This document shows positions 11,141 to 37,199 of a DNA stretch of 64,000 bases, piece after piece. Position 1 is the first letter of the stretch. Every line of letters begins with the position of its first letter. The stretch covers positions 992,001 through 1,056,000 of the forward strand of contig NZ_VTOJ01000001.1 in assembly GCF_009176545.1 (NCBI RefSeq), given 5' to 3'. The notes under the pieces are model-generated. The model was not told where the DNA came from. It saw nothing but the letters and a program-made list of their open reading frames with translations, and did not search any database. Origin of the DNA: Salinigranum salinum (lineage in GTDB: Archaea; Halobacteriota; Halobacteria; Halobacteriales; Haloferacaceae). The position numbers and the translations under genes were made by a program.

Positions 11141-11164
11141 GAATGATGGGCCCTTCGATGAGTG

Positions 11165-12502: not shown

Positions 12503-12525
12503 GATCGAACGTGTAAGTCCCACTT

Positions 12526-13788: not shown

Positions 13789-13960
13789 AATACCATCTAA
13801 TCATCGAAGCCGCTACTTATGATTTTTGCACCCCGTGTCTGCATCTGTGCTGTACTCGTCCACGGGTGGCAGTTCGCCTCGACGTGTCCGATTGCTGCCC
13901 ATCGAACACCGAACTGGTATTCCCAAATGTTTTAATCGCTTGTCGAAGAATAGCTCCGGC
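13789..13960. promoter_or_regulatory. Divergent promoter region, ABC importer / mannonate dehydratase
   Basis: This 172-bp region lies between divergent starts. On the minus strand a TATA-like TCATAAGTAG (13813-13822) serves 13788. On the plus strand TTTAAT (13931-13936) serves the ATG at 13961. Both spacings suit leaderless transcripts. I saw no clear operator palindrome here. Confidence 0.45.
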
Positions 13961-16537: not shown

Positions 16538-16612
16538 GCCGGATGTGCTCGCGTCGTTCCTCGGGAGGGCGTGCGTTTTCGCCCGCGGACCGGACACTCA
16601 ACGATAGCGTCT

Positions 16613-16627
16613 GCTGGTTTGACCAGC
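16613..16627. promoter_or_regulatory. Candidate operator palindrome GCTGGTTTGACCAGC
   Basis: Perfect 6-bp arms (GCTGGT/ACCAGC) around a 3-nt centre lie between the IclR gene and the SDR gene starting at 16775. The GGT-N3-ACC core is shared with the palindrome at the second IclR promoter (47736-47754). A regulator binding site is inferred from that. A TATA-like GTTTAAC follows near 16736. Confidence 0.4.
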
Positions 16628-16774
16628 CTCATCGACCGGAATCGTGTCGACTGACTCACCGCACATCCCTCACTCACGCCAGGAGAACCTCCACGACACC
16701 AGCTGTCGGGAGACCCGAAAACGGCTCGTGCGAACGTTTAACAGACAGCCACCCATCTGTTGCCCACGAACCTC

Positions 16775-17560
16775 ATGAGTAGAACGCGCCATGCGGATCG
16801 GACCGTGATCGTCACCGGTGCATCCAGTGGGATCGGTCGAAGAATCGCCCAACAGTTCGGCCGCGAGGGAGCGAACGTCGTCTGTGCGTCACGGAGCAAC
16901 GAACCCAAACAGGGAAAATATCACGATGCTGATGTATCTGTTCCCACCGAGGAGTACATCAAGACGGAGACGGACGGTGACGCGACGTTCGTCTCGACGG
17001 ATGTGTCGGATCCAGATACCGTGCGGAATCTGATCGACGAAACCGTCGACATGTACGACGGCATCGACGTGTTGGTCAACAACGCCGGCATCTCCGTAGC
17101 GGGCGACTCTCAGTCGACGTCTATCGAGGACTGGCGGAGGATGATCGGGGTCGACCTCGACGGGACGTTCTTCTGCTGCAAGTTCGCCATCCCCTACCTC
17201 AAAGCATCCGAAGGACATATCGTGAACATCGCTTCGGTCAACGCCACCGAAGGCGGTTCAGGTCCGGCGTACGCAGCGGCCAACGCTGGCCAGGTCAACC
17301 TGACCCGAGACCTCGCCACCGAACTCGGCGCGGACAGCGTGAACGTCAACTGTGTATCCCCAGGATATATCAAAACGCCAATACAGGACTACCAAACAGA
17401 GGAGAGCATCCAGGTGAGTCGCGAACAGACGCTTCTCCCAGAACTTGGCGAACCCGAAGAGGTCGCGTCGGTGGTCACGTTTCTCGCGAGCGAGGAGGCC
17501 AGTTACATCCACGGTGCGGACATCTACGTTGATGGTGGCTGGGCTGCTCACCGTGTTTGA
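16775..17560 (+). CDS. SDR family oxidoreductase with atypical active site (YxxxN)
   Basis: The protein has 261 residues of Rossmann fold. The NAD(P)-binding TGASSGIG is near the N-terminus (residues 13-20), DVLVNNAG follows, and the C-terminal region has HGADIYVDGGW. The usual catalytic YxxxK reads YAAAN: Tyr166 is present, but the position of the Lys holds Asn170. An insertion with PKQGKYHDADVSVPTEEY after beta-3 is also unusual. It probably descends from a sugar or 2-keto-3-deoxy-acid dehydrogenase; whether it still oxidises is uncertain. The start is ATG 16775; a TTG at 16760 is possible but weaker. Confidence 0.85.
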   Translation: MSRTRHADRTVIVTGASSGIGRRIAQQFGREGANVVCASRSNEPKQGKYHDADVSVPTEEYIKTETDGDATFVSTDVSDPDTVRNLIDETVDMYDGIDVLVNNAGISVAGDSQSTSIEDWRRMIGVDLDGTFFCCKFAIPYLKASEGHIVNIASVNATEGGSGPAYAAANAGQVNLTRDLATELGADSVNVNCVSPGYIKTPIQDYQTEESIQVSREQTLLPELGEPEEVASVVTFLASEEASYIHGADIYVDGGWAAHRV

Positions 17561-18333
17561 TCACTCAGTGGAACAGAAGTTGATGGCGACAGCGTCTGGC
17601 ACGACTCCGTCGCGACTGACCGAGACCAGCTAGTGACATCCACGCTGGAGGACTCAGCGCGATGAACTCGTCCGCGGATATCCAGCGGTGAGTTCGAGTG
17701 ACGATCGCACTCGAAACTCCATATTTACCATATCACTGATACTGATTGATTAAGTGATTGATCCGGGACGATCGTGCATTCTGAGCAGGACTACCCTCGT
17801 ATTTTGTATGCGATATCGCTCCGTGATCCCTGCTCGACACTGCTCTCTCCGTCTCGCGAAACTCTGTCGACAGACTGGATCAGTCTCTGGCCAGAACGAA
17901 GCACGCTTGACTCCCGATAACCGACATCACCTCCGATCTCGGGGCGTGTCGCCATGGCTCTCGCAACACCACTAAAATTATATGATATTTGATGTTCTTT
18001 CAAAATTTCCCGTTCTCGAATACGTTCTCATATTATGGCTGCCGATCGGAGACTCGTGGTCGGACAGCGATGGCTTCGAGCCACGATCCCGCTGGCCGAC
18101 CCGTGAGGCGACCCGGAACGTTCTGCCATAGATGCTCGAATTTTTCGTCGGTGGTCTCGACTCGACGATACCGATCACGAGACGGCACCCACGCCCGTGT
18201 CGTCGTCACCAGCCAGATCGACTGCCCGGTGTCTGTCGACATCGGCCACGGGGTTTCACCCCATGCGTGGCGTGTCTCCCACGGATTCCTGCCCATCCCA
18301 AAGGTAATCTGCGTGCACTCCGAATTCGCTCCG
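17561..18333. other. Intergenic region, no gene seen
   Basis: This region of 773 bp is AT-rich around 17725-17750 and 17980-18040. A minus-strand frame at 18033-18431 looks weakly protein-like (Trp-rich) but overlaps the start of the next SDR gene and has no recognisable motif. I call no gene. A weak TATA-like GGTAATC near 18303 may serve 18334. Confidence 0.4.
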
Positions 18334-19104
18334 ATGTTCGACGAAACGACGGCGTTCGTTACAGGTGCGAGCCGCGGAATCGGTCGGTCGATCGCAGAAC
18401 GGGTGGTCGAGGGGGGTGGTAACGCCGTCATCGCGGCTCGAAGCGACGCGATCTACGACGTCGCCGCCGAACTCGGAGAGGATGCCGCACTCGCGGTCGA
18501 AACCGACGTGTCCGATGAACGCAGCGTCTCCAGTGCGATCGAGGCGACGGTCGAGGAGTTCGGCGGGCTCGACGTCCTGGTGAACAATGCTGCGGTCGCG
18601 GGGCCAACGGCACCGGTCGAGCAGGTGCCAACGGACGAATGGAAACGAACGCTCGACGTCAACCTCACGGGAGCGTTCCTGTCGATCAAACACGCAGTTC
18701 CGTCCCTCAAACAGAGCGACTGCGGGACGATTGTCAACATCTCATCGATAACGGGCAAGCGACCGCTCCCCAGTCGAACGCCGTACGCTGCCACGAAAAT
18801 CGCCCTCATCGGTCTCACGCGGACGCTCGCGTTCGAACTCGGCGAGTACGGCATCACGGTCAACACCATCTGCCCCGGCACGGTTCGGACCGAGCGGCTT
18901 CGACGAGTCTTCGAGCGACATGCCGAGGAGATGGGGGTGAGCTTCGAGGAGGCGTTGCAGGAACTCGTCCTCGACGACTGTGCCATCGACGAAGTACAGG
19001 AACCCGAGGAGGTCGCGGGGCTGGTGGCGTTTCTCGCCAGTGACCACGGACGCCACGTGACCGCCCAAGACATCAACCTCGACTCGGGTGCGACCTGGTA
19101 CTGA
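18334..19104 (+). CDS. SDR family oxidoreductase (copy 2)
   Basis: The protein has 256 residues. TGASRGIG is near the N-terminus, LDVLVNNAAVAG in the middle, the catalytic Ser region IVNISSITG, and an intact YAATK. The C-terminal end is DINLDSGATWY. It is a classical NAD(P)-dependent dehydrogenase, likely acting on a sugar, a sugar acid or a 2-keto-3-deoxy acid given its neighbours (uxuA, IclR, an amidohydrolase). The frame is open further upstream; the ATG at 18334 is chosen because SDR homology starts right there (MFDETTAFVTGAS). Confidence 0.9.
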   Translation: MFDETTAFVTGASRGIGRSIAERVVEGGGNAVIAARSDAIYDVAAELGEDAALAVETDVSDERSVSSAIEATVEEFGGLDVLVNNAAVAGPTAPVEQVPTDEWKRTLDVNLTGAFLSIKHAVPSLKQSDCGTIVNISSITGKRPLPSRTPYAATKIALIGLTRTLAFELGEYGITVNTICPGTVRTERLRRVFERHAEEMGVSFEEALQELVLDDCAIDEVQEPEEVAGLVAFLASDHGRHVTAQDINLDSGATWY

Positions 19105-19270
19105 GGACGGCTGCTGTGGCTAGTTTCTGGTCCCTCGCTGACCACTCCGGTAGAGAACGGTACTGATCGACAACCTACGGACACCATCGGCGGAATCACC
19201 GTCGGTCCCGACGGCGGTGCACCACGGATCAGCATAAACGTTGATAACAGTCCGCACCACCAGGTCAATC

Positions 19271-20170
19271 ATGGTCATCGACACCCATGCACACTGCTGG
19301 GGACCGCCGAGCGAAGCGCACCCGTGGACGAACTCGCAGATCGTCGGGGGGTCGGACGAGTACGCGAGCGGCGATTTCCTGCAGGATTTCACCGTCGACC
19401 TCGTCTACACGGGAGAGAAACTACTGGCCGACATGGACCGACTCGTCGTCGAGGACGCCGTGGTGGTCGGATATCCCATCTGTCCGTGGACGGACAACTG
19501 GTACACGGTGAAGGTGGCCGAGGAGTACGATCGGCTCACGGGGGTCGTGATGATCGACCAGTTCGCCGACGACGCCGTCGATCAACTCGAAGACGTGATG
19601 AGCGCCGAGGGGATCATCGGCATCCGGCTCGGGGCTGGCTGTCCGTACGACCGGATGTGGCAACGGTTCGATCCCACCGTCGACTGGCTGCTCGACGCCA
19701 TCGACGAAACGGAGTTCTGGGCGGCCGCCGAGGCTCTCGATGCGGCTGTCCACATCTGGACGCTCCCGCCACAGCTCGATCAGGTTGTCGAGTTCATCGA
19801 GACGTATCCGGAACTCACGTACGTGATCGACCACCACTCGTACATCCGGGGGGACGTCCGGCCGGGTGCGGAACCCTTCGAACAGCTCGCGACCCTCGCG
19901 GCACACGACAACGTCCTGGTGAAGCTGTCGGGTGTGGTGACACTCTCGGACGAGGAGTATCCCTACTCGGACAAACACGACCACGTGCTCTGGCTGCTCG
20001 ACCAGTTCGGGCGAGAGCGGATCGCGTGGGGGTCCGACTGGCCGAACGAGAGCAACGACGCCACGTACCTGGAGACGCTGACCTGGCTCAACCACGTCGA
20101 CGAGCTGTCCCAGTCGGATCTGGAGTGGATCACGGACCGATCGTTCAGACAGCACGTCGGCATGGACTAG
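19271..20170 (+). CDS. Amidohydrolase-superfamily lactonase-like protein (copy 1 of 3)
   Basis: A TIM-barrel Amidohydro_2 protein of 299 residues. The metal motif HAH is in MVIDTHAHCWGPP. A further His region is VIDHHSYIRG, followed by KLSG and WGSDWPN, which carries the barrel's last Asp. Relatives include 2-pyrone-4,6-dicarboxylate lactonase and L-rhamnono- or fucono-lactonases. It is clearly paralogous to the genes at 28889 and 36321 (shared xHAWGPPxPDHPWxN opening). Opening of an aldonolactone is inferred from context. Its stop abuts the convergent HD gene (20170/20171). Confidence 0.85.
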   Translation: MVIDTHAHCWGPPSEAHPWTNSQIVGGSDEYASGDFLQDFTVDLVYTGEKLLADMDRLVVEDAVVVGYPICPWTDNWYTVKVAEEYDRLTGVVMIDQFADDAVDQLEDVMSAEGIIGIRLGAGCPYDRMWQRFDPTVDWLLDAIDETEFWAAAEALDAAVHIWTLPPQLDQVVEFIETYPELTYVIDHHSYIRGDVRPGAEPFEQLATLAAHDNVLVKLSGVVTLSDEEYPYSDKHDHVLWLLDQFGRERIAWGSDWPNESNDATYLETLTWLNHVDELSQSDLEWITDRSFRQHVGMD

Positions 20171-20874: not shown

Positions 20875-21372
20875 ATGACACACACGATTTCACTCACCGT
20901 CAACGGTGAGGATCACGAGGTGACCGTCAGTCCGGAGCGACTATTAGTACACGTTCTGCGGGAGGATCTCGGCTACACGGGAACCAACATCGGGTGCGAG
21001 ACGAGCCTCTGCGGGGCCTGTACCGTCCACGTCGATGGAAAAGCGATGAAATCCTGCACGATGCTCGCGGTCCAAAGCGACGGTCGGGAGATTCAGACGG
21101 TCGAGGGGCTCGCAGACGGCAGCGAGCTCCACCCGATTCAGGAGAGCTTCAAAACGGAACACGGCCTGCAGTGTGGCTACTGCACACCGGGCATGATGAT
21201 GACGTCCCTGGAACTCCTTGAGGACAACCCCGACCCGGACCGCGAGGAGATCCGGCACGCGCTGGAGGGCAACCTCTGTCGGTGCACTGGCTATCAGAAC
21301 ATCATCGACGCCGTCGAGGAGACCGCCCGGAAGCTCAATACCGCGACGGACGGGGGCTGTGATGTCGAGTGA
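20875..21372 (+). CDS. Molybdenum hydroxylase [2Fe-2S] subunit (CoxS/XdhC-type small subunit)
   Basis: The protein has 165 residues. A plant-type ferredoxin cluster uses Cys41, 46, 49 and 61 (CETSLCGAC...C). A second helical-domain cluster uses Cys100, 103, 135 and 137 (CGYCTPG, CRCTGY). It passes electrons between the Mo and FAD subunits encoded next. The stop lies inside the next gene (ATG 21362), so translation is coupled. The S-L-M gene order matches carbon-monoxide-dehydrogenase-like and aldehyde-oxidoreductase operons. Confidence 0.95.
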
Positions 21373-23773
21373 ACTCCGGCCCGGTGACCGCTCAGGTGAA
21401 GGTAGAATCGGCGATCCGGTCGATCGGCTGGAGGATCCTGCACTCCTGAAAGGAACGGCGACGTTCGTCGACGACATCACCGAACGGGGAATGCTCCACA
21501 TGGCCATCCACCGGAGCCAGTTCGCCCACGCGAGGATCGACGAGATCGACACCACAGCGGCCGAGGCGATGGACGAGGTGGTCGCGGTGTACACCGCTGA
21601 GGATCTGGAGGCCGCGGGCGTTCCCGGTCACATTCCGCCAGTGTACCGGGTTCCCGACATGGTGGAGCCCCACCACCCCATCCTCGCGAAGGAGCGGGTC
21701 CGCCATCAGGGCAAGCCCGTCGCACTGGTCGTCGCCGAGGACAGATACGTCGCCCACCGGGCGGCAGACCGGATCGACGTGGAGTACACCCGACTCGACG
21801 TCGTCACCGACCCGCTTGCCGCGATGGACGAGGCGGCTCCGACTCTTCACGAGGACGCCCCGGACAACCTCTGCTTCGAGTACGAGGACGGCGACCAGGA
21901 GGCCACCGAGAACGCGCTGAACGAGGCGGACCACAGGGTGGAGTTGAGTTACTCCTATCAGCGCCTCGCGCCGAGCGCGATCGAGCCGCGCGGCATGGTG
22001 GCCGACTACGACAGCGCGACGGACGACGTGACGATCCGGATGCCGACGCAGAACCCGTTCCTCCACCAGACGGTCATGTCCGACGTCCTCGACCACCCGC
22101 AGCGAAAAGTACGCGTGATCACGCCGAACATCGGCGGGAGCTTCGCCTCGAAGTCGATGATCCATCCGGAGGAGAACCTCACGGCGTTCTGTGCGATGCA
22201 ACTCGAACGGCCCGTGAAGTACGTCGCCAACAGAACCGAGTCCTTCCAGGCCGACGAACACGGTCGCGGCCTCGAAATCGACTGTGAGATCGGCGTCGAC
22301 GAGGACGGAACGATACGTGGCGCGAAGGTGTCCGCAGTGTGTGGACTCGGGGCGTCGCTCTCGACGAAGGGGACGACCGGTCCGACCGCCGTGTTCGGCC
22401 CGATGATCTCGGGCCAGTACACCATCCCTGCGCTGTACTATCGTGGGAGAGGCGTGTTCACCAACGCGACCCCTGCCTCGGCGTACCGGGGCGTCGGGCG
22501 GGCACCGGCGTCGTTCACCATCGAGCGCCTGGTGACGCTCGCCGCTCGCGAGATCGGCATGGATCCGGCGGAGCTCCGGCGAAAGAACTTCATTCCGGAG
22601 GACGAGTTCCCCTACGAGACGGCCGTTGGGGCCGTCTACGACAGCGGGACGTACGAGCAGGCGCTCGACCGCGCCATGGTGCTGGCCGACTACGAACGGC
22701 TCCGTGAGCGCCAGGCTGAACTGCGCGACGAGGGACGGTACCTCGGGATCGGCATCTCGTCGTTCGTCGAACCGGGCGGATTCGCGCCCTCGTTTTACAG
22801 CGCAGCGCTCCGGATGACCGAGGAGGACGCGACGGCTCGGACGAGCTTCTGGGAGAACGGTGGCGTCCGCATGCACGAAACCGGCGAGGTGACGGTGAAC
22901 GTCGGCACGGCGAGCCCCGGAACAGGGACCAAGACAGCCATCGCCCAGATCGTTGCCGATACGCTCGACGTCGATTTCGACGACATCACGGTCCTCGAGG
23001 GGACCGACACGCGGACCTCGCCGCAGGGAGCCGGCACCTCGGGGAGTCGAAACGCCGTCATGGGTGGAAACGCGGTGTACCGGAGCGCCGAGAAGGTCCG
23101 GGAGAAGGCCCGCCGGATCGCCGCTCACCAGCTCGAAGCCGCCGATGAGGACATCGACTTCACCGACGGCGAATTCCGGGTCGCTGGAGCCCCCGACCGA
23201 TCGATTGCCATTGCCGAGGTGGCCGCACAGGCGTATCTCGGTCACAACCTCCCGGAGGAGATGGAGCCGGGCCTCGAAGCGACGACCGGGTTCAATCCAC
23301 CGAACATCACTTGGGCCCACGGGACCCACATCGTCGTCGTGGAGGTCGATCCCGACACCGGCGAGATCGAGTTCGAGAACTACGCCGGCGTCGACGACTG
23401 CGGCGTTCGGATCAATCCCAAGATCGTCGAAGGGCAGGAACACGGTGGCGCCGTCGCCGGCATCAGTGCGGCCCTCTACGAGGGAATCCGGTACGACGAC
23501 AGCGGGAACCTGACGACCGCCTCGTACCAGGACTACGCGCTGGCGAGAGCCCACCAGCTGCCCGAACTGACTCTCGACCACACCGAGACGCCCTCGCCCT
23601 CGAACCCGCTCGGCGTGAAGGGCAAGGGTGAATCGGGCGCGATCGGCACGCCACAGGCCGTCGTCAACGCGGTGACCGACGCGCTCCAGCCGTTCGGCGT
23701 CGACCACATCGAGATGCCGCTCACCGCCGAGCGCGTCTGGCGTGCTGCCAACGGCGAGCAGGGGGGATCGTAA
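21362..23773 (+). CDS. Molybdenum hydroxylase large (Mo-cofactor) subunit, form II CoxL-like
   Basis: The protein has 803 residues. The N-terminal 'hammerhead' domain (GRIGDPVDRLEDPALLKGTATF) precedes Mo-cofactor-binding domains. The active-site loop reads AYRGVGRA (near residue 371), not the AYRCSFR of true CO dehydrogenase; it is closest to the form II AYRGAGR pattern. The catalytic Glu region KGKGESGAIG is near the C-terminus. CO oxidation is therefore unlikely. An aldehyde or heteroaromatic substrate fits better, possibly a sugar-derived aldehyde as in archaeal glyceraldehyde oxidoreductases. The start is ATG 21362, 11 bp inside the small-subunit gene. Confidence 0.93.
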   Translation: MSSELRPGDRSGEGRIGDPVDRLEDPALLKGTATFVDDITERGMLHMAIHRSQFAHARIDEIDTTAAEAMDEVVAVYTAEDLEAAGVPGHIPPVYRVPDMVEPHHPILAKERVRHQGKPVALVVAEDRYVAHRAADRIDVEYTRLDVVTDPLAAMDEAAPTLHEDAPDNLCFEYEDGDQEATENALNEADHRVELSYSYQRLAPSAIEPRGMVADYDSATDDVTIRMPTQNPFLHQTVMSDVLDHPQRKVRVITPNIGGSFASKSMIHPEENLTAFCAMQLERPVKYVANRTESFQADEHGRGLEIDCEIGVDEDGTIRGAKVSAVCGLGASLSTKGTTGPTAVFGPMISGQYTIPALYYRGRGVFTNATPASAYRGVGRAPASFTIERLVTLAAREIGMDPAELRRKNFIPEDEFPYETAVGAVYDSGTYEQALDRAMVLADYERLRERQAELRDEGRYLGIGISSFVEPGGFAPSFYSAALRMTEEDATARTSFWENGGVRMHETGEVTVNVGTASPGTGTKTAIAQIVADTLDVDFDDITVLEGTDTRTSPQGAGTSGSRNAVMGGNAVYRSAEKVREKARRIAAHQLEAADEDIDFTDGEFRVAGAPDRSIAIAEVAAQAYLGHNLPEEMEPGLEATTGFNPPNITWAHGTHIVVVEVDPDTGEIEFENYAGVDDCGVRINPKIVEGQEHGGAVAGISAALYEGIRYDDSGNLTTASYQDYALARAHQLPELTLDHTETPSPSNPLGVKGKGESGAIGTPQAVVNAVTDALQPFGVDHIEMPLTAERVWRAANGEQGGS

Positions 23774-24645
23774 TGTTTCCCGACGGGTTCATCTACAGGC
23801 GCGCCGAGAGCGTCGACGACGCGATCGACCTGCTCGCCGAACACTCGGCGGCCGAGACGGTGCTCCTCGCCGGCGGCCACAGCCTCCTCCCGACGATGAA
23901 AACCGGGCTGGCGAGCCCCGATGTCGTCGTCGATATCAGCCGGCTCGACGACGCACGCGGCATCGATACCACCGACGGCACGATCGAGATCGGTGCGCTC
24001 ACCAGCTACGCGGCCATCGAGGGTTCCGCGGAGCTCCGACGCGACTGTCCGGTCGTCGCCGAAGCTGCCGCCGAAGTCGGTGACGTCCAGGTCCGCAACG
24101 CGGGCACTATCGGCGGTAACCTCGCGCACGCCGATCCGGCGTCCGACATGACTGCCAGCGTCCTCGCCGCGGATGCGACGATCACCGTCCGAGGCCCCGA
24201 CGGCTCGCGATCGATCGCGGCCGAGGAGTTCTTCCAGGGGATCTTCGAGACCGATCTCGCGGAGGGAGAACTCCTCACGGGAATCGAAGTCCCGACCGAC
24301 GCCGCGAACACGACCAGTGCGTACGTCAAGCGACCGAGTCCGTCCTCGGGGTATCCCATCGTCGGTGTCGCCGCAGCCGTCGAGACGGCCGACGACACGG
24401 TCGAGAACGCTCGTCTGGCAGTCACGGGTGCGACGGATCACGCGGTCCGTCTCGGGGCTGTCGAGGAGGCGCTGACGGGCGAGACGCTCTCGTCGGATAC
24501 CATCGCGACGGCCGCCGAACACGCGACTGACGATCTCGGGTCGGCGACCCTGATGGACAACGATCGGGCCTCGAGCGAGTTCCGTGCACAGCTCCTCGAA
24601 CAGTACACCGAACGCGCACTGGGACAGGTGTCCGAACACGTATGA
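23773..24645 (+). CDS. Molybdenum hydroxylase FAD-binding subunit (CoxM-like)
   Basis: The protein has 290 residues. FAD-binding motifs are LLAGGHSLLPTMKTGLASP and TIGGNLAHADPASDM, and a CO-dehydrogenase flavoprotein C-terminal domain follows. It transfers electrons from the Fe-S subunit to an acceptor. The ATG overlaps the upstream stop (TAATG at 23771-23775). The gene ends with TGA exactly where an IS605-type right-end sequence begins (24646), so the insertion did not disrupt it. Confidence 0.94.
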   Translation: MFPDGFIYRRAESVDDAIDLLAEHSAAETVLLAGGHSLLPTMKTGLASPDVVVDISRLDDARGIDTTDGTIEIGALTSYAAIEGSAELRRDCPVVAEAAAEVGDVQVRNAGTIGGNLAHADPASDMTASVLAADATITVRGPDGSRSIAAEEFFQGIFETDLAEGELLTGIEVPTDAANTTSAYVKRPSPSSGYPIVGVAAAVETADDTVENARLAVTGATDHAVRLGAVEEALTGETLSSDTIATAAEHATDDLGSATLMDNDRASSEFRAQLLEQYTERALGQVSEHV

Positions 24646-24789: not shown

Positions 24790-25983
24790 TCAGTCCGCCG
24801 ATCCGAACGGTTTGAGGATGTCGTGGTTCAGTTCGACGCCGAAGCCCGGGTCGTCGCCGAGGTCGATGCTGCCGTCCTCCGGGAGTGGTTCCCCCTCGAT
24901 GGCGTCGAAGATGGGGCGGACCTCGGTGCCGTCCGCGACGGTCAGATACTCGGCGTACGGCGCGTTTGTGTGGGCCATCACGAAGTGGTAGTTGTACACG
25001 CTCGCACCGTGGGGGCAGATGGGGAGGCCGTGGCCCTTGCACATCTCTGCGATGCGGTGTGCCTCCGTGAGACCGCCACACCACTGCAGTTCGGGCTGGA
25101 TGATGTCGCCCGCCCCTGCGTCGAGTAACTGGTGGTAGGCCTTGTAGCCGAACTCGAGATTGCCGACCGCCATCTGGATGGGGTGGATGTCGTGGCGGAT
25201 GTCGCGGTACTCGGTGACAGCACCGGGGTGCAGCGGGTCCTCGATCCACTTCACGTCGTACGGACGGAGCCGTTCGGCGACGCGGACCGTGAACTCCTTG
25301 TCCCACGCCATGTAGGCGTCGATCATCACGTCCGTATCCTCGCCGAACAGCGCCTGGGTCTCAGCAACCATCTCCTCGGTCTTCCGGAGGCCGGCCTTGC
25401 CGTCGGCGGGGCCCCACGGGGCGGCGAGTTTGACACCGAAGAAGCCCTCTCCGGCCATGTGCTCCATCACGTCCATGTGAGTCGTCACGTAGCAGGGAAT
25501 CTCGTCCATCGAGCGGCCGCCGAAGAGGTTATAGACGGGCTGGTCGGTGATCTTCCCGATGAGGTCGTACAGCGCGAGGTCGACACCGCTGATAGCCATC
25601 ATCGAGATACCGCGCTGGCCGTAGGGTAGTTGTGACCGGTACATCTGCTCCCAGATCCGCTCGACGTCGAACGGATTCGCGCCCTCGAGGAAGCGGCGGT
25701 AGTGGGTGTCGATGACGTCACACGCGTAGCGTCCGCCGCCGTAGTTCGCGCAGAACCCGACGTCGCCCTCGTCTGTCTCCAGTTCGACGACGAACGGGTC
25801 CTGTCCCGGCCCCATCCACGACGTGCGCGAGTCGCGGTACTCCTCGTAGATCGACATGGGGTTCGCGATGAGCGCGTCGGTCTGCCAGCCCCCACCCCAG
25901 TACTGCGACTCCCCCGCGTCGGCCCCGCGCTGTCCCTGTGTCCCCTCCGCAACGGTGTACAGTCTGACGTCTGTAATTTCCAT
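24790..25983 (-). CDS. Enolase-superfamily acid-sugar dehydratase, L-rhamnonate dehydratase-like (copy 1)
   Basis: The protein has 397 residues. Remembered RhmD features are present: NPMSIYEEYRDSR, WCGGLTEAHRIAEM, PHGASVYNYHF and a closing DDPGFGVELN. Lys185 (KLAAPWG) and metal ligands Asp222 and Glu248 (WIEDPL) are visible, with Glu277 a candidate third ligand. The catalytic His is 325. The residue that is Asp in RhmD before the His is Glu298 (QPELQW). Expected reaction: dehydration of an aldonate to a 2-keto-3-deoxy acid. The start at 25983 fits the TATA-like CAAACTATTTGC at 26009-26020. L-Rhamnonate is likely but galactonate-type substrates are possible. Confidence 0.85.
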   Translation of the reverse strand: MEITDVRLYTVAEGTQGQRGADAGESQYWGGGWQTDALIANPMSIYEEYRDSRTSWMGPGQDPFVVELETDEGDVGFCANYGGGRYACDVIDTHYRRFLEGANPFDVERIWEQMYRSQLPYGQRGISMMAISGVDLALYDLIGKITDQPVYNLFGGRSMDEIPCYVTTHMDVMEHMAGEGFFGVKLAAPWGPADGKAGLRKTEEMVAETQALFGEDTDVMIDAYMAWDKEFTVRVAERLRPYDVKWIEDPLHPGAVTEYRDIRHDIHPIQMAVGNLEFGYKAYHQLLDAGAGDIIQPELQWCGGLTEAHRIAEMCKGHGLPICPHGASVYNYHFVMAHTNAPYAEYLTVADGTEVRPIFDAIEGEPLPEDGSIDLGDDPGFGVELNHDILKPFGSAD

Positions 25984-26216
25984 GGCGCTAGAGACTCTCT
26001 GCGAACTTGCAAATAGTTTGTGACGAACCTGGCGACCGACCGGACACCCGCTCAGGTCGCTCGTGACACGGGCAACTGTGACCACTCCGGGCCTCTGCCG
26101 CGTCGAGCCCGCGATGGCTTCTCTGGTGTTGGCCGCCCGTGAGAGCGCGACGCGGTGTCACCGGCTACGGCCGGGGCGACAGAAACTATTTGGCTCGGGC
26201 ATCTGAACGTGAATCG
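25984..26216. promoter_or_regulatory. Divergent promoters with twin AAACTATTTG boxes
   Basis: The same decamer AAACTATTTG occurs upstream of both divergent genes: on the minus strand at about 26010-26019 (serving 25983) and on the plus strand at 26184-26193 (serving 26217). Each is about 25-34 nt from its ATG. They are probably TATA boxes with identical flanks, hinting at common control of the dehydratase and the demethylase-like gene. Confidence 0.5.
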
Positions 26217-27578
26217 ATGCCTGACAATTTAGCCGAGTTACTCGACTCAGTCGACAGCACCGTCGAGATGCTCCGGAACACGGACCTCTCGTTCAACCAG
26301 TACGTCTTCCCGGCGGAGTACACCAACTGGATCGAAGAACAGCGGGCCGTCCGTGAGACGTGCGCCGTCGTCGACCAGTCGTTCCACATGGAGCCGTGTT
26401 TCGTCCGTGGTCCCGACGCGGTCGCGTTCCTCGAGCGGATCGCGGTCAACAGTTTCGAGAAAATCCGCACCGAGGAGCCACCACGGGCGATCAATCTCCT
26501 TTTGTGTAATCCGGACGGCTACATAATCGGTGACCAGATCCTGTTCCACCTGGGCGAGAACGACTTCTCCTCCGTCGGGTCGGTCTGGGCGAACAACTGG
26601 ATCCGCTACACCGCCGAGACGATGGACTACGACGTCGAGACGGAGACGCCGTACGGGCCGTACATGGAGGGCGCCACACCACCCAGGTACCGCTTTCAGG
26701 TCCAGGGGCCGGACGCTCTCGACGTGATGGCCGAGGTGGTCGACGGCCCTCTCCCGGACATCCCGTTCTTCGGGATGGATGTCGTCGAGATCGACGGCCA
26801 CGAGGCCTACGCACTGGCCCACGGCATGGCGGCGATGCCGGGGTTGGAGATCTTCGGCCCGTACGAGCACCACGACGCGGTGCTGGACGACATCCTCGCG
26901 GCTGGCGAGGTGTACGACATCCGACAACTGGGGTCGAAAGCGTACAAGACCGGCAAGATCGGCTCCGGATGGCTCGTCGGTCCCGTCCCGGCGATCTACC
27001 ACAGCGAGGAGATGAGGGGGTACCGGGAGTGGCTGGACGCCGACGGCACCGAGGCGCGGTTCTCCATCGGCGGGAGTTTCGTCTCCGACGACATCCGCGA
27101 CTACTACATGACGCCGATGGAGCGCGGCCAGGGTCACCTCGTGCGGTTCGATCACGAGTTCGTCGGCAGGGCGGCGCTCGAGGCAATGATGGACGACCCA
27201 CACAGGGAGCGTGTCACCTTCGTCTGGAACGAGGCGGACGTGATCGACGTCTACGCCTCGCTCTTCCACGACGGCGAGACGAAGAAGCTCATCGACCTCC
27301 CCGACACGGCGAACACGTGGTCGAAAACCCACTACGACAGGGTGGAGAAGGACGGTGAGACCGTTGGGGTGTCGAAGTATCCCGGCTACCTCTACTATGA
27401 GCGCGAGATGCTATCGCTCGGGACCATCGACCCCGAGTACAGCGACCCGGGAACGGAGGTGACGTTCGTCTGGGGGGACGACTCGAACAAACGACGCGTC
27501 GAACGACACGAACCCACCGAGATCAGGGCGACGGTCGGGCCGGCTCCCTACGTCACAGGCGGTCGGGAGTCGATGTAG
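26217..27578 (+). CDS. LigM-like tetrahydrofolate-dependent O-demethylase (aminomethyltransferase family)
   Basis: The protein has 453 residues of GcvT fold. Its pattern follows bacterial LigM (vanillate/3-O-methylgallate O-demethylase, about 470 aa, remembered sequence): TVEMLRN, FQVQGPDALDV, HGMAAMPGLEIFGPYE, GSGWLVGPVPAIY, YREWL, IGGSFVSDDIRDYY, FDHEFVGRAALEAM. Such enzymes move a methyl group from a methyl ether to folate; haloarchaea use folate C1 carriers. It is divergent from a rhamnonate-dehydratase-like gene, so an O-methylated sugar acid or a methoxylated aromatic is a plausible substrate. The start at 26217 is supported by a TATA-like box; an upstream in-frame start is not needed. 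Confidence 0.82.
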   Translation: MPDNLAELLDSVDSTVEMLRNTDLSFNQYVFPAEYTNWIEEQRAVRETCAVVDQSFHMEPCFVRGPDAVAFLERIAVNSFEKIRTEEPPRAINLLLCNPDGYIIGDQILFHLGENDFSSVGSVWANNWIRYTAETMDYDVETETPYGPYMEGATPPRYRFQVQGPDALDVMAEVVDGPLPDIPFFGMDVVEIDGHEAYALAHGMAAMPGLEIFGPYEHHDAVLDDILAAGEVYDIRQLGSKAYKTGKIGSGWLVGPVPAIYHSEEMRGYREWLDADGTEARFSIGGSFVSDDIRDYYMTPMERGQGHLVRFDHEFVGRAALEAMMDDPHRERVTFVWNEADVIDVYASLFHDGETKKLIDLPDTANTWSKTHYDRVEKDGETVGVSKYPGYLYYEREMLSLGTIDPEYSDPGTEVTFVWGDDSNKRRVERHEPTEIRATVGPAPYVTGGRESM

Positions 27579-27825: not shown

Positions 27826-28701
27826 GTGCGTCTCTCCGACCTCGAACAACCGTTCATCGTCACCAGTCTCGCCGAGACGACCATCGAGGAGACGGTCGCG
27901 ACGATCAAACAGGCGGAGTACGACGGCGCCCGGGCGTTCGAGGTACACCTGCCACTGGTCTCGTTTCCCGACCGCGAGGACGTCGAGCGGCTCACCACGT
28001 CGACGGCCGCTCCGATGTACGCGACGTGTCGCCGCGAGCACTTCTACGACCTGCTCGGTGCCGACGTGCCGGTCGAGTTGACCGACGACCAGCGCACCGA
28101 GGCGCTCGTCGACGCGGTCGAGGCCGGCTTCGACGGGGCCGACTTCGAGCTCGACACGTTCGACCCCACGGGCGGGCCCGAGGCGTTCACCGAGGCGGCC
28201 ATCACCGCCCACGCCGCCGACCCCGACGCCGAACCCGCCCAGATCACGGACGACGCGGACGCGGTCGCCCGACAACGAGAGGTCGTCGACCGCGTCCACG
28301 ACGCTGGCGGTGACGTGATGCTCTCGGCGCACACGTACACACACCTCACTCCCGAGGACGCGCTGGGCATCGCCGAACGGGCGACGGACCGCGGCGCCGA
28401 CTTCGCGAAGATTGTGGGTGTCGACCGCGACATGGACGAGGCACTGGAGACGCTCCGGGCGCACCTCCGCCTGAACGAGGCCGACGTCGTCCCGTACGGC
28501 CTGATGGCCATCGGCGACCCCTCGCGCATCGTCCGGCCGATCGCTCCCATGTTCGGGTCGGCCTGGGTGTTCGCCCAGCCGGAGTTGACTCCCGGTGGGT
28601 TCCACTCGTGGCCGCTCGTGGAGAACGCCCGCGAGGTCCTCAGACGGGTCGACTGGCGGACCGCCTACACCCCCCACGAATCGGGGACCCGTCGCCCGTG
28701 A
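27826..28701 (+). CDS. Divergent class I 3-dehydroquinate dehydratase-like protein
   Basis: The protein has 291 residues in an AroD type I barrel. The Schiff-base Lys195 (FAKIVG) and catalytic His169 (SAHTYTHLTP) are present. However, the substrate-binding E-x-R of true enzymes reads Glu39-x-His41 (FEVHL), and the EGG loop after TCRR is EHFYD. A changed substrate is likely, so I do not call it aroD. The start is GTG 27826, preceded by a clear Shine-Dalgarno GGAGG (27814-27818), unlike the leaderless neighbours. It lies downstream of the LigM-like gene within a catabolic island. Confidence 0.75.
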   Translation: MRLSDLEQPFIVTSLAETTIEETVATIKQAEYDGARAFEVHLPLVSFPDREDVERLTTSTAAPMYATCRREHFYDLLGADVPVELTDDQRTEALVDAVEAGFDGADFELDTFDPTGGPEAFTEAAITAHAADPDAEPAQITDDADAVARQREVVDRVHDAGGDVMLSAHTYTHLTPEDALGIAERATDRGADFAKIVGVDRDMDEALETLRAHLRLNEADVVPYGLMAIGDPSRIVRPIAPMFGSAWVFAQPELTPGGFHSWPLVENAREVLRRVDWRTAYTPHESGTRRP

Positions 28702-28888: not shown

Positions 28889-29770
28889 TCAGAGACCGAC
28901 CAGATCCCTGAACGCGTCCCCGGTGAGGTACCGCCGGTCGCGGTCCGAGAGAAACGGAACCTCGTCGAGCCACGACAGCGTCTCCTCGTAGGTCATCCCG
29001 CCGAACTCGGGGTGGCTGACGTTGGGGAAGTCGGACCCCCAGACGACGCGCTCGGCGCCGAACGTCTCGAGGAGCCACTGCAGGTGGTCGAACGTGTCCG
29101 CGTAGGGGTACTCCTCGTTGGAAGTGTGGGCCACCTCCGAGATCTTGACCGCGACGCGGTCGTGTTCGGCGAGCGGCTCGAACCCTGGGTAGCTGTCGGC
29201 GGGGTCGTCCGCGGCGTCGGCGTGGGCGTAGTGGTCGAACGCGTAGGCCAGGTCGGGGTACGCCTCGACGAGTTCCAGCGCCTGGTCGAGCTGGCTCGTG
29301 TGAGCCATGATCTGGACGAGGGCGTCGGTCTCGCGTGCGGCGTCCCAGAAATCGGTCTCGTCGATCGCGTCCCGCAGCCACGTCTGCTCGTAGTCGAACC
29401 GCTCCCACATCTCGTCGTAGGGACAGACCGCCCCCAGCCGGAAGCCCAGCATCCGGTCGTGGGACATGAGCTCGCGGAGCGTCTCGTCGGCGTCGTCGAC
29501 GAACTGGTCGAGCATCGAGACGGCGTAGAGCCGCTCGTTCTCCTCGGCCGCCTTCACCGTGTACCAGTTGTCCGTCCAGTCGGTGATGGGGTAGCCGACG
29601 ACGACACCTTCGTCGATGCCCGCCTCGTCCATGTCGGCCAGCAGTTTGTCGGCCGTGTAGACGATGTCAGTCGAAAAGTGACTGGCGAAGTTCTCGACGA
29701 GGGGGCCGTTCGTCCACGGGTGGTCGGGCGTCGGCGGTCCCCAGGCGTGGGTGTGCGTATCGAGTACCAT
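28889..29770 (-). CDS. Amidohydrolase-superfamily lactonase-like protein (copy 2 of 3)
   Basis: The protein has 293 residues. The metal motif is HTH in VLDTHTHAWGPP, with AFDHYAHAD, VKISEVAH and WGSDFPN. It is a close paralogue of the genes at 19271 and 36321, sharing the opening and TDFWDAARETDALVQ (with 36321). It probably hydrolyses a sugar or aromatic lactone. The start is ATG 29770; a GTG three codons upstream is possible. It is convergent with the AroD-like gene and divergent from the enolase at 30079. Confidence 0.85.
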   Translation of the reverse strand: MVLDTHTHAWGPPTPDHPWTNGPLVENFASHFSTDIVYTADKLLADMDEAGIDEGVVVGYPITDWTDNWYTVKAAEENERLYAVSMLDQFVDDADETLRELMSHDRMLGFRLGAVCPYDEMWERFDYEQTWLRDAIDETDFWDAARETDALVQIMAHTSQLDQALELVEAYPDLAYAFDHYAHADAADDPADSYPGFEPLAEHDRVAVKISEVAHTSNEEYPYADTFDHLQWLLETFGAERVVWGSDFPNVSHPEFGGMTYEETLSWLDEVPFLSDRDRRYLTGDAFRDLVGL

Positions 29771-30078: not shown

Positions 30079-31254
30079 ATGAAAATCGAAGAAGTAGAGA
30101 TCCACGAGTTCACGTACGAGATCGAAGACGTCAGCCCGCGACCCGACGGAGAGATCGTCTACGTCCCGGGTGGGCGAATCGAGCCGCCGGGCTACGTGTT
30201 GACCGTCCGGTCTGACACCGGCCTCGAGGGCCACTACCGCGCACACATGTGGACCGCTGTCGGCGTCGCGCAGATCAAAGCGGTCGCCGCACACTTCCTC
30301 GTCGGCCGCGACCCACTCCAGCGGCAGGCAATCTGGAACGACCTCCGCCGGCAGTTGCGTCACACCGACCACAACGCGCTCGGCGCGATCGACAACGCGT
30401 TGTGGGACCTGGCCGGCAAGCACTACGACGAAAGCGTCTCGACGCTCCTCGGCGGACGGGTCCGCGACCGCGTCCCTGCGTACGCGTCGACGCTCTCCGG
30501 CAACCCCGAGCGTGACACGCCCGCGCGATACGCCGACTTCGCCGAGGAGTGTCTCGACCGGGGGTATCCGGCATTCAAGATCCACCCCCATGGGGAGCCG
30601 GCGGCGGACATCGAGATCTGCCGGGCCGTTGCCGACCGCGTCGGCGACGAGATGGAGCTCATGCTCGACCCCTCGAGCTGTTACGGCAGTTTCCACGATG
30701 CCGTTCGCGTCGGGAAAGTCCTCGACGAACTGGGGTTCCTCTGGTACGAGGACCCGCTGCGGGACACCGGAGACAGCATCTACGCGATGCGCCGACTCGC
30801 TGACGAGATCGAGACGCCCATCCTCGGCATCGAGCAGTCACGCACAGAACCGTTCGGTGCGTTCAACCACCTCGTGAACGACGCGCTCGAGATGGTCCGC
30901 GTCGACGCCCACCTCGGCGGCGGCCTGACGAGCGCACAGAAGATCTGTCACACGGTCGAGACCGCGGGGATGGACGTCGAACCGCACGTCGGTGGACCGG
31001 AGCACCTCCAGTTGGCCTCGACACTGCGGAACGCCCACTACTTCGAGCACGGACTCCTCCATCCGGAGGTCGGCTTCGAGTGGTACAACGACCAGGGGTA
31101 CGTCGGCTCGGTCGAATCCGTCGGCTCCGACGGCTGCGTTCCGGTGCCCGACGGCCCGGGGATGGGCGTGGAAATCGACTGGGACTTCGTCGAAGAACGC
31201 GGAACGGGCCACACGCTGATCGACGGGTCGAGCACGACCGACAGCTTCCCCTGA
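30079..31254 (+). CDS. Mandelate racemase/muconate lactonizing enzyme family acid-sugar dehydratase
   Basis: The protein has 391 residues. Enolase-superfamily MR-subgroup residues are Lys167-x-His169 (FKIHPHG), metal ligands Asp197, Glu224 (WYEDPL) and Glu252 (GIEQS), and the Asp276/His303 dyad (RVDAHLGGG, EPHVGG). It should abstract the proton alpha to a carboxylate and eliminate water, giving a 2-keto-3-deoxy acid. KxH in place of KxK marks specific acid-sugar dehydratase subfamilies. It is not RhmD-type, unlike its two relatives here. The substrate is unknown; context favours a hexonate or a 6-deoxyhexonate. Confidence 0.86.
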   Translation: MKIEEVEIHEFTYEIEDVSPRPDGEIVYVPGGRIEPPGYVLTVRSDTGLEGHYRAHMWTAVGVAQIKAVAAHFLVGRDPLQRQAIWNDLRRQLRHTDHNALGAIDNALWDLAGKHYDESVSTLLGGRVRDRVPAYASTLSGNPERDTPARYADFAEECLDRGYPAFKIHPHGEPAADIEICRAVADRVGDEMELMLDPSSCYGSFHDAVRVGKVLDELGFLWYEDPLRDTGDSIYAMRRLADEIETPILGIEQSRTEPFGAFNHLVNDALEMVRVDAHLGGGLTSAQKICHTVETAGMDVEPHVGGPEHLQLASTLRNAHYFEHGLLHPEVGFEWYNDQGYVGSVESVGSDGCVPVPDGPGMGVEIDWDFVEERGTGHTLIDGSSTTDSFP

Positions 31255-32257: not shown

Positions 32258-33430
32258 TCAGGCCTCGTCCAGCGGAACGACGGTGACGCGGTCCAGTTCG
32301 ACGCCGAAGCCAGGGTCGTCGTTTAAGTGGATGACGCCGTCCTCGGGGAGGGGTTCACCGTCGATGACGGGGATGTTCGGTTCGACACCGGTGTGGTAGC
32401 CGCCCATGTACTCGCCGAACGGCGACTCCGCACAGGAGGCGATGAAGTGGCAGGTGTACGGCGTCGTGTAGTGCGGGATCACCGGCAGGCCGTTCGGTTT
32501 CGCCATCGCGGCGATCCGCTTCGTCTCCGTCAGCCCGCCGGTCCAGGAGACGTCCGGCTGGATGACGTCGCCGGCGTCGTTCTCGATGAGGTCGTGGAAG
32601 GCCTTGTGGCCCCATTCAAGGTTGCCGACGGCGAGCTGGATCGGCTTAATCGACCGACGGATGTCGCGGTACTGGTCGGTCGTGTGTCCGGGCAGGAGCG
32701 GGTCCTCGATCCACTTCACGCCGTACCCCGCCAGGCGATCGGCCACGCGAACGGTGAACTCGCGATCCCAGGCCATGTACGCCTCGATCATCACCTCCGC
32801 CTCCTCGCCGAAGACCTCTCGGGCGTCGCGGACCATCTCTTCGACGGCGTCGATCCCGGCGCGGCCGTCCGACGGTCCGTGATGGACGGGCAGTTTCACG
32901 CCGAGGAAGCCCTCGTCACCGAAGTGCTCCATCACCTCTGGGTACGCCGTGACGTAGCACTCGATCTCGTCGCGGACCTGCCCTCCGAGCAGGTTGTACA
33001 CCGGCTGGCCAGTGATGTTTCCGAGCAGGTCCCACATCGCGAGTTCCACGCCGGCCATCGCGTTGTGAGTGAGAAACCCCTGCCCCGTCGGCAACTGGGC
33101 GCGGTACATCTGCTCCCAGACCCTGTTGATCTCCCACGGGTCGGCACCCTCGACGAACCGCCGGTAGTGGCGGTCGACGAGCCGTGCTGCGTGTTCGCCG
33201 CCGCTCTCGTTGACCGCGAACCCGGTCGCGCCGTCCGCGGTCTCGAGCTCGACGACGAACCGCTCGTAGCCGCCGCCACCGCTCATCCAGTCCCCGTCGC
33301 GGTACTCGGGGAACATCGTCATCTGGTCCTGCTGTGGCGGGTATTTCGAGGACGACCGGGAGACGTTCGACGACTCGATCTGGCCCTCGTCGGAGTCCTG
33401 CAAGTACAGACGGACCTCGCTGATTGTCAT
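32258..33430 (-). CDS. Enolase-superfamily acid-sugar dehydratase, L-rhamnonate dehydratase-like (copy 2)
   Basis: The protein has 390 residues and is paralogous to 24790-25983 throughout. Shared features are HYRRFVEGADP, WEQMYRAQLP, MIEAYMAWDRE, KWIEDPLLPG, IQPDVSWTGGLTE and DDPGFGVELD. Here the Asp preceding the catalytic region is conserved (QPD) and the His lies in PHYTTPY. It is 115 bp downstream of the L-rhamnose mutarotase gene, which makes L-rhamnonate or a related 6-deoxyaldonate the best guess. The two copies differ around the active site (PHGASVY against PHYTTPY), suggesting different substrates. Confidence 0.86.
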   Translation of the reverse strand: MTISEVRLYLQDSDEGQIESSNVSRSSSKYPPQQDQMTMFPEYRDGDWMSGGGGYERFVVELETADGATGFAVNESGGEHAARLVDRHYRRFVEGADPWEINRVWEQMYRAQLPTGQGFLTHNAMAGVELAMWDLLGNITGQPVYNLLGGQVRDEIECYVTAYPEVMEHFGDEGFLGVKLPVHHGPSDGRAGIDAVEEMVRDAREVFGEEAEVMIEAYMAWDREFTVRVADRLAGYGVKWIEDPLLPGHTTDQYRDIRRSIKPIQLAVGNLEWGHKAFHDLIENDAGDVIQPDVSWTGGLTETKRIAAMAKPNGLPVIPHYTTPYTCHFIASCAESPFGEYMGGYHTGVEPNIPVIDGEPLPEDGVIHLNDDPGFGVELDRVTVVPLDEA

Positions 33431-33545: not shown

Positions 33546-33848
33546 TCAGATCATCCGGTAGACCTCGTCCATCCAGATGTCGTCGGCGTCCTCGAGAATC
33601 GGAGCCATCACCTCGGCCCATTCGGCCTGTGCCTCGCTGTTTGCCATCACGTGCTCGATGACGGCAGGGTCCTCGACCTCCATGTAGCCGAAGACGTGGC
33701 CGTCCTTCTCGAAGACGCTGTAGGTCTCGAGGCCGGCCTCGGAGTCGAGGTACGCCGACTCCAGCGCCTCGGGGACGGTCTCGTGTTTCTCGCGGTACTC
33801 CTCGCGCTTGCCCTCCCTAATCCGGAGGTGGAATGCAATTCGTTCCAT
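33546..33848 (-). CDS. rhaM: L-rhamnose mutarotase
   Basis: The protein has 100 residues, the usual length of the RhaM family (E. coli RhaM is 104). Tyr18 and His22, the anomer-exchange residues of E. coli RhaM, are at the same positions here (EEYREKHETV). The C-terminal half includes FGYMEVED and IWMDEVYRMI. The enzyme interconverts alpha and beta anomers of L-rhamnose (relatives act on fucose). It lies 58 bp after the LLM oxidoreductase and before the RhmD-like dehydratase. It is the strongest clue to the sugar handled by this operon. Confidence 0.88.
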   Translation of the reverse strand: MERIAFHLRIREGKREEYREKHETVPEALESAYLDSEAGLETYSVFEKDGHVFGYMEVEDPAVIEHVMANSEAQAEWAEVMAPILEDADDIWMDEVYRMI

Positions 33849-35322: not shown

Positions 35323-35342
35323 CCGTGCGTCGACTGTCGCCC

Positions 35343-36254
35343 ATGTCATCCATCACTGGCGTCTACCCCGTTGTGGCGACGCCGTTCACCGCCGCCGGCG
35401 CCGTCGACTACGACGCGATTCGCGCCATCGTCGAGACGCAGGTCGAGCGGGGTATCGACGGCGTCATCTGCTTCGGCATCGCCGCGGAGTTCTACAAACT
35501 CACGGACGACGAACGGCGGCGGGTCGTCGAGGTGGCCGCCGACGCCACGGCGGGGACAGCCACGGACCTGTTCGTCTCGGTCACGGACCACGCGACGCGG
35601 CTCGCGGTCGAGTTCGCGGAGTTCGCCGAGGCGAGTGGTGCCGACGGACTCATGCTCCTGCCACCGTTCTTCCTCGGGCCATCGGAGTCGGCCGTCCTCG
35701 CACATACCCGTCGCGTCGGTGAGGCCGTCGACATCCCGGTCATGCTCCAGTACGCACCCGTCCAGACGGGCGTGTCCATCTCGCCGGCGACGCTTTCGGA
35801 TCTCGCCGCGTCGGTCGAGACGATCCGGGCGTTCAAGATCGAGAGCCGACCGCCAGGACCGTACATCTCCTCGTTGCTCGAGACTGCCGCCGACATCGAC
35901 GTCGACATCGACGTCCACGTCGGTTACGCCGGCGTCGCGATGCTCGAGGCGTTCGACCGCGGCGCGGTCGGGGTCGTCCCCGGCGCCTCGATCTCGGATC
36001 TGTACCGTGACGTCGTCGACCACCTCCGGGCCGGCCGACGGTCGGAAGCCGTGGCGGTCCACACGGCGATGCTGCCCCTGCTCTCGTTCATGATCCAGGA
36101 TATCGAGGGGTTCATTCACTACGAGAAGCGCCTCCTTGAGGCCGAGGGCCTCGTCGACGCCGTCCACGCCCGCGAGCCGGCGTTCCACCCCGATTCGCAC
36201 ACGGACGCGCGGTTCGAGGAGTGTCTGGCGGCTCTTGCGCCTCACCGCGTCTGA
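35343..36254 (+). CDS. DapA/KDG-type class I aldolase (dihydrodipicolinate synthase family)
   Basis: A TIM-barrel protein of 303 residues. The Schiff-base Lys is 165 (AFKIESRP) and the conserved Tyr is 137 (LQYAPVQ). The pyruvate-carboxylate loop, usually GTTGE, reads GIAAE here. The N-terminus ITGVYPVVATPF is typical. In this context it probably cleaves a 2-keto-3-deoxy sugar acid to pyruvate and an aldehyde rather than making lysine precursors. The start at 35343 is fixed by TAGTTAACATA at 35312-35322 (leaderless). It is divergent from the small ORF/LLM unit and followed by an amidohydrolase on the same strand. Confidence 0.87.
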   Translation: MSSITGVYPVVATPFTAAGAVDYDAIRAIVETQVERGIDGVICFGIAAEFYKLTDDERRRVVEVAADATAGTATDLFVSVTDHATRLAVEFAEFAEASGADGLMLLPPFFLGPSESAVLAHTRRVGEAVDIPVMLQYAPVQTGVSISPATLSDLAASVETIRAFKIESRPPGPYISSLLETAADIDVDIDVHVGYAGVAMLEAFDRGAVGVVPGASISDLYRDVVDHLRAGRRSEAVAVHTAMLPLLSFMIQDIEGFIHYEKRLLEAEGLVDAVHAREPAFHPDSHTDARFEECLAALAPHRV

Positions 36255-36320: not shown

Positions 36321-37199
36321 ATGACCGTCCTCGACTGTCACACCCATGCCTGGGCCCCGCCGAGTCCCGACCACCCCTGGGTGAACGAGTCGCTCATCCA
36401 GCTCGTCGACGGCTACGCCGTCGACCCGGTGTACACGACGGAGAAGCTGCTTGACGACATGGACGCCGTCGGCATCGACGAGGCAGTCCTCGTGCCGTTC
36501 CCGCTCGTCGACTGGCAGGACAACACGTACATCATCGAGTCGGTCGGTGCACACGACCGTTTCGCTGGCATCGTCATGCTCGACCCCTTTGCCGACGACG
36601 CGGCCGACCGGCTCCACGAACTGATGAGCGAACCGGACGTCATCGGGTTCAGGATCGGTTGCATCTACCCGCGGGATCACATGTGGATGGACCACTACTT
36701 CGACCCCGGGCAGGAGTGGCTGCTTGACGCGATCGACGAGACCGACTTCTGGGACGCCGCACGCGAGACGGACGCCCTCGTCCAGCTGTTCGCCCACCGC
36801 GAGCAGCTCCCACAGGTGACGCGGCTCGTCGACGCACATCCCGACCTGACCTACGCCGTCGACCACCTCGCCCACGTCGACACGAGCGTCCCGCCCGACG
36901 AGGGCGCGTTCGCCGAGTTCGCCCGACTCGCCGAGTACGAGACCGTCGTGGCCAAGCTGTCGGAGGTGCCGCACCTCTCGACGGAGTCGTTCCCCTACGC
37001 TGACGTCCACGATCACGTGCGGTGGCTGCTCGACCGCTTCGGTCGGGAACGGCTGGCCTGGGGGTCGGACTACCCCAACATCAGCGCCGTCACCGATTAC
37101 GAGCGTGGGCTCCGCTGGCTCGACCACGTCGAGGGGCTCTCCGACGCCGACCGCGAGTGGCTGACTGGGCGGTCGTTCCGGCGACACGTCAGCCTGTAA
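36321..37199 (+). CDS. Amidohydrolase-superfamily lactonase-like protein (copy 3 of 3)
   Basis: The protein has 292 residues. The metal motif HTH is in VLDCHTHAWAPP, with AVDHLAHVD, AKLSEVPH and WGSDYPN. It shares DAIDETDFWDAARETDALVQ with the paralogue at 28889. It probably hydrolyses a lactone formed by one of the nearby dehydrogenases. It lies 66 bp after the DapA-type aldolase and is convergent with a zinc dehydrogenase gene. Three such paralogues within 18 kb is unusual. Confidence 0.86.
   Translation: MTVLDCHTHAWAPPSPDHPWVNESLIQLVDGYAVDPVYTTEKLLDDMDAVGIDEAVLVPFPLVDWQDNTYIIESVGAHDRFAGIVMLDPFADDAADRLHELMSEPDVIGFRIGCIYPRDHMWMDHYFDPGQEWLLDAIDETDFWDAARETDALVQLFAHREQLPQVTRLVDAHPDLTYAVDHLAHVDTSVPPDEGAFAEFARLAEYETVVAKLSEVPHLSTESFPYADVHDHVRWLLDRFGRERLAWGSDYPNISAVTDYERGLRWLDHVEGLSDADREWLTGRSFRRHVSL

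Follow-up and report, generated by a model that had tools for sequence, protein, structure and literature searches.

A LigM/DesA-superfamily protein of a haloarchaeal clade, predicted to be a tetrahydrofolate-dependent O-demethylase, in a sugar-acid island of Salinigranum salinum

Folate-dependent O-demethylation is known from bacteria feeding on lignin-type aromatics, and methoxy removal by archaea is known from the multi-protein corrinoid O-demethylase systems of methoxydotrophs. Which reaction, and on which substrate, is then to be expected from a LigM-like protein encoded among sugar-acid genes of the haloarchaeon Salinigranum salinum? Archaeal methoxy removal would be common to this protein and the corrinoid systems, but here a single predicted folate-dependent protein is involved. 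A literature search, with most subscription journals outside its coverage, retrieved no paper on folate-dependent O-demethylation in haloarchaea. We analyzed the gene in a window of 64,000 nucleotides (the whole stretch of DNA under study) from an assembly flagged for 6.5% contamination, together with its relatives in other genomes.

Family, fold and substrate site of the window protein

The LigM-like open reading frame is intact, with an ATG at 26217, 453 codons and a stop at 27576-27578, and it has the codon-position composition and amino-acid content of a genuine halophile gene. A longer version starting at a GTG at 26139 had no backing from relatives and was discarded. An internal TGA suspected in some LigM-like copies turned out, in the one copy checked (L020), to be the C-terminal stop overrun by the alignment.

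The best match among solved structures was LigM, the vanillate/3-O-methylgallate O-demethylase of Sphingobium sp. SYK-6 (PDB 5x1i-5x1n, 5tl4), with residues 2-452 aligned to LigM 7-462 (5x1i/5tl4) at E 1.8e-101 and about 40% identity. GcvT came next at 2e-12, with most of that match falling in the first half. The full-length likeness to LigM asserted in an earlier note on this DNA was thus confirmed, and both peptides quoted there were found. Pfam detected a single domain, GCV_T. Among the curated NCBIfam models, DesA (syringate O-demethylase, NF047633), which has the same architecture, scored 465.4 bits and LigM (NF047885) 415.6 bits, under the respective cut-offs of 800 and 580. The GcvT, DmdA, sarcosine oxidase and TMAO demethylase models gave only 26-80 bits (GcvT 79.7 against a cut-off of 300, DmdA 34.2 against 410). 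An AlphaFold model based on the window protein together with 29 relatives (mean pLDDT 85, pTM 0.87) was compared with solved structures by Foldseek. LigM chains came out on top (TM up to 0.93), including complexes with vanillate, 3-O-methylgallate, THF and THF/protocatechuate, followed by GcvT-fold enzymes including DmdA (TM 0.63-0.65). The LigM-specific C-terminal half aligned throughout, both in sequence and in the model. By full-length homology and fold, the window protein is a member of the LigM/DesA superfamily. The view that LigM is its nearest kin stands on the best solved match and the fold, but not on the profile scores, which are slightly closer to DesA (465 vs 416). With DmdA (DMSP demethylase) and GcvT it has in common the GCV_T folate-binding domain and, as predicted, methyl or aminomethyl transfer to THF, but these enzymes are shorter, match mostly its first half and reach only 34-80 bits and a TM of about 0.63.

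Residues were compared in an alignment of 128 family members (84 bacterial and 44 haloarchaeal). LigM H60, E215, Y247 and W256 are kept in 44/44 haloarchaeal and 84/84 bacterial members, and Gln165 in 123 of the 128, the other five having Glu. We take Tyr247 and His60 of LigM to be catalytic, and Glu215 and Gln165 to belong to its folate site. The window protein keeps all five of these residues (its H57 and Y243 correspond to LigM H60 and Y247) as well as Y31, the equivalent of which falls in a low-confidence region of the model. On the other hand, Arg122, presumably the clamp that holds the carboxylate of the benzoate substrate, is present in 80/84 bacterial but in 0/44 haloarchaeal members and is Ser in the window protein. 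The residue at LigM-286 is small in 80/80 proteins with Arg122 and bulky in 39/48 without it; relative to LigM, the window protein has Phe for Gly at this position and Trp for Pro124. The bulky replacements are hydrophobic (F, W, V), and polarity has not increased at the substituted positions. Four bacterial members with Arg122 were scanned and all exceeded the LigM cut-off (608-765), one of them also the DesA cut-off, whereas haloarchaeal members scored 405-465, above neither.

The curated cut-offs and the missing Arg122 exclude simple orthology of the window protein to LigM or DesA. Likewise, an ordinary GcvT or sarcosine-type enzyme lacking the LigM residues, which the earlier note set against its own reading, is excluded by the LigM match, the profile scores, the Foldseek ranking and the presence of H60, Q165, E215 and Y247. 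The comparison with LigM and DmdA by alignment and model that it had proposed gave a folate site that is kept and an Arg122 that is replaced. Because the clade has lost Arg122 and carries a bulky residue at the covarying site, vanillate and syringate are not expected to be taken in the manner of LigM. Since the part of the bacterial enzyme that grips lignin acids is absent, the window protein probably acts on a different compound, with chemistry that is probably as in LigM.

Two sister proteins with 38-43% identity (L150:9522 and L151:9015) have LigM His60 and Tyr247 replaced, and probably catalyze another reaction or are inactive.

The haloarchaeal clade and its folate linkage

LigM-like genes were detected in 18 of 392 genomes of the order and in 14 of 171 genomes of the family. 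The source genome has three: in addition to the window copy, contig C2 carries a 70% paralogue and contig C1 a 50% copy (L010) some 40 kb to the left. In the tree, all haloarchaeal members fell on one side of a branch with an SH-aLRT of 97, and the window protein clustered with the C2 paralogue and L120. The sister clade of haloarchaea to which it belongs is patchy in distribution and multi-copy. The genome designated G429 encodes a 79% homologue of the window protein and three more at 66-69%. Six to nine copies each were counted in genomes G427-G431, G254, G352 and G355 (genus g3, probably Halobellus).

Of the 392 genomes, 100 carry an MTHFR-family gene. Such genes are present in 17/18 genomes with a LigM-like gene and in 83/374 without (Fisher p 4e-10, ignoring genome relatedness), and 14 of 40 LigM-like copies have one within 10 kb, against an expectation of 0.34 (relatedness again ignored; ten genomes from several families contribute). 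Several copies are also flanked by genes for FolD, PurU, PabA/PabB and FolC-FolP-like proteins. The source genome encodes FTHFS, FolD, two MTHFR, PabA/PabB and a DmdA-like protein, and no MTHFR gene was found within 10 kb of the window copy, the nearest being 46 kb away. As genomic context, the use of folate in a haloarchaeon, suggested in the earlier note, is borne out by these one-carbon genes and by their strong link to the family across haloarchaea. Since the clade is tied to genes of folate metabolism, folate-linked O-demethylation in haloarchaea is a well supported prediction, mostly for what look like aromatic compounds. A separate, expanded branch with up to nine copies per genome, tied to folate-making and recycling genes, suggests that salt-loving archaea may run a methyl-ether economy of their own.

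A folate/C1 island was observed at G000 C2:876001-912000 (L011, L012), with genes for FTHFS, FolD, a DmdA-like protein, MTHFR, PabA/PabB, a FolC-FolP-like fusion and three dimethylglycine-dehydrogenase-like proteins.

The island around the window gene

The gene surroundings described in the earlier note were all recovered: a divergent promoter region shared with a rhamnonate-dehydratase-like gene, further rhamnose-type and sugar-acid enzymes, an AroD relative and a CMD protein (Table 1). The rhamnonate-dehydratase-like neighbor matched solved L-rhamnonate dehydratases at 1e-75 to 3e-77. The top models of both ADH1 and ADH2 were threonine dehydrogenase and scyllo-inosose dehydrogenase, below the cut-offs in each case. 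The island sits between two sugar-type ABC systems.

Table 1. Features of the window around the LigM-like gene
Feature	Position	Strand	Remarks
Amidohydrolase-2 lactonase-like protein	19271-20170		
Molybdenum hydroxylase, three genes (CoxS/L/M-like; glyceraldehyde or CO dehydrogenase type)	20875-24645	+	below cut-offs
Enolase-superfamily sugar-acid dehydratase, L-rhamnonate-dehydratase-like	24790-25983	-	341.6 bits, cut-off 393
Divergent promoter region	25984-26216	.	233 bp between rhamnonate-dehydratase-like (-) and LigM-like (+) genes
TATA-like element AAACTATTTG	26010-26019	-	26 nt ahead of rhamnonate-dehydratase-like start codon
TATA-like element AAACTATTTG	26183-26192	+	24 nt ahead of LigM-like start codon
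THF-dependent O-demethylase-like protein (LigM/DesA superfamily, haloarchaeal clade)	26217-27578	+	453 aa
AroD-like protein (type I dehydroquinase)	27826-28701	+	Schiff-base type His and Lys motifs, GTG start
Amidohydrolase-2 family lactonase-like protein	28889-29770	-	
Second enolase-superfamily protein (galactonate-dehydratase/lactonizing type)	30079-31254	+	
Second rhamnonate-dehydratase-like protein	32258-33430	-	
RhaM-type mutarotase	33546-33848		
DHDPS/KDG-aldolase-like protein	35325-36254	+	
Amidohydrolase-2 lactonase-like protein	36321-37199		
Zn-alcohol dehydrogenase ADH1 (threonine DH/scyllo-inosose DH type)	37302-38345	-	relative flanks 79% homologue in G429
IlvD/EDD dehydratase (dihydroxy-acid dehydratase subfamily)	38418-40142	-	808 bits over cut-off
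CMD-family protein	40264-41025		two CMD stretches
Zn-alcohol dehydrogenase ADH2	41210-42247	+	67% relative divergent to 79% homologue in G429
IclR-type regulator IclR2	47784-48557	+	54% relative near 79% homologue in G429

The CoxS/L/M-like operon points toward the rhamnonate-dehydratase-like gene. The G+C content is 58-62% at 10001-20000 and 44001-50000 of the window and 63-71% in most of the rest; these dips suggest a mixed origin of the island.

The TATA-like element is identical at the two divergent starts and has no third copy in the 64 kb, for a motif that was picked post hoc; in a shuffle control, two matches at one mismatch were reached in 3 of 100 shuffles.

Comparison with other loci revealed which of these neighbors accompany the gene elsewhere. 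In G429, the 79% homologue is flanked by relatives of ADH2 and ADH1 (67% and 62%, respectively) with the relative of IclR2 nearby, and an IclR-ADH2-LigM-ADH1 module of four genes is common to the window and this genome. This module provides a short list of candidate genes. Among the catabolic genes of the window, only ADH1, ADH2, IclR2 and a 41% relative of the second enolase recurred at other LigM-like loci, and the remaining sugar-acid genes were not found at those examined. The rhamnonate-type gene was present in this genome only among the 171 of the family. The idea that LigM-like genes sit in a conserved sugar-acid operon was rejected, as no such operon was present across the fetched loci and these 171 genomes.

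Proposed reaction and candidate substrates

We consider it likely that the window protein is a THF-dependent O-demethylase with a clade-altered substrate site. We infer the methyl transfer itself, the substrate class and an activation step as follows. THF would be bound at the conserved GcvT-type site, and the methyl group of the methoxy substrate would pass to it with the aid of Y243 and H57, giving 5-methyl-THF and a hydroxylated compound. Three kinds of enzyme encoded in this genome, MTHFR-family, FolD and formyl-THF ligase, could then recycle the methyl unit. Our best guess for the substrate of the window copy is a methoxylated compound that is also processed by the two linked Zn-alcohol dehydrogenases; their oxidation next to the methoxy group might create an enol-type methyl ether, with a leaving group usable for folate.

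For the window copy, aromatic and non-aromatic substrates appear about equally likely. On the one hand, it could well act on a methoxyaromatic other than a benzoate (a methoxyphenylacetate, a phenylpropanoid or a CoA-thioester), the sugar-acid neighbors being unconnected members of a wider catabolic island, although we would put this short of an even chance. Known THF O-demethylases act on aryl ethers, and the new bulky residues of the site are hydrophobic. Many haloarchaeal LigM-like loci carry an AMP-forming CoA ligase (66-71% among loci), a 4HBT thioesterase and an HpaI-type aldolase, and loci of the same type also include a catechol 2,3-/homoprotocatechuate-type extradiol dioxygenase, an HpaB-like oxygenase, a 2-hydroxyacid dehydrogenase, an IclR regulator and MTHFR; two ABC ATPases with membrane proteins are present at several. 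Part of the aromatic set (extradiol dioxygenase, aldolase and MTHFR) accompanies L010, and the 70% paralogue lies amid genes for a TRAP transporter, a CoA ligase, an acyl-CoA dehydrogenase and enoyl-CoA hydratases. This context argues strongly for aromatic substrates in the cassette-bearing subclades, including that of L010. However, the window copy is an exception in the clade: the aromatic cassette is missing from its nearest relatives. A search beside it and beside those relatives in G429 turned up no gene for ring cleavage or MTHFR and no close CoA-ligase homologue, and no ring-cleaving dioxygenase was detected among the window proteins scanned. The linked Zn-alcohol dehydrogenases, moreover, are of a polyol/amino-alcohol type.

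On the other hand, the loss of Arg122 and the conserved linkage with two Zn-alcohol dehydrogenases point toward a non-lignin substrate, and a sugar- or cyclitol-type compound is possible. Folate-dependent demethylation needs a good leaving group, which in LigM is a phenolate; on chemical grounds, alkyl methyl ethers are ill suited to direct methyl transfer to folate, and plain sugar alkoxides are unsuitable. Since sugar alkoxides leave poorly, prior oxidation by the dehydrogenases to an enol-type ether would help a polyol ether to react. A bolder reading, less likely than not, is that the protein uses folate to demethylate the O-methyl ethers of non-aromatic polyols (cyclitols, sugars or their acids), the linked dehydrogenases oxidizing the ring beside the methoxy group so that an enolate would leave. 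If true, this would be a new substrate class for the enzyme family, in an archaeon. The narrower proposal of the earlier note, that an O-methylated deoxysugar or its acid feeds the adjoining rhamnonate-dehydratase/lactonase/aldolase route, now seems unlikely. Its premises of fold, catalytic and folate-site residues and a sugar-acid island held, and the divergent gene pair with its shared TATA-like element, the mutarotase, the two rhamnonate-dehydratase-like and three lactonase-like proteins, the KDG-aldolase-like protein and the sugar ABC transporters are all in keeping with it. However, the linkage to the rhamnonate-type gene is conserved at none of the other copies examined, the substituted positions of the site have not gained polarity, and direct transfer from an alkyl ether would require an alkoxide leaving group, for which we know of no precedent among THF O-demethylases.

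Very unlikely, in our view, is a GcvT-family enzyme that shares only the fold of LigM and catalyzes another reaction, such as N- or S-demethylation or methylene transfer. The GCV_T domain would be compatible with this, and some THF-dependent members of the family are demethylenases (PMC5547118). The profile scores, far higher for LigM and DesA than for the enzymes of such reactions, and the alignment of the LigM-specific C-terminal half speak against it.

Elsewhere in the clade, at loci L123, L127, L131, L136, L138 and L141, MTHFR, a CoA ligase and a 4HBT thioesterase accompany one to three LigM-like copies, and at several of them FolD, PurU, Pab genes, an HpaI aldolase and an extradiol dioxygenase are present as well. 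Judged by its gene content, this cassette looks like an undescribed archaeal methoxyaromatic route.
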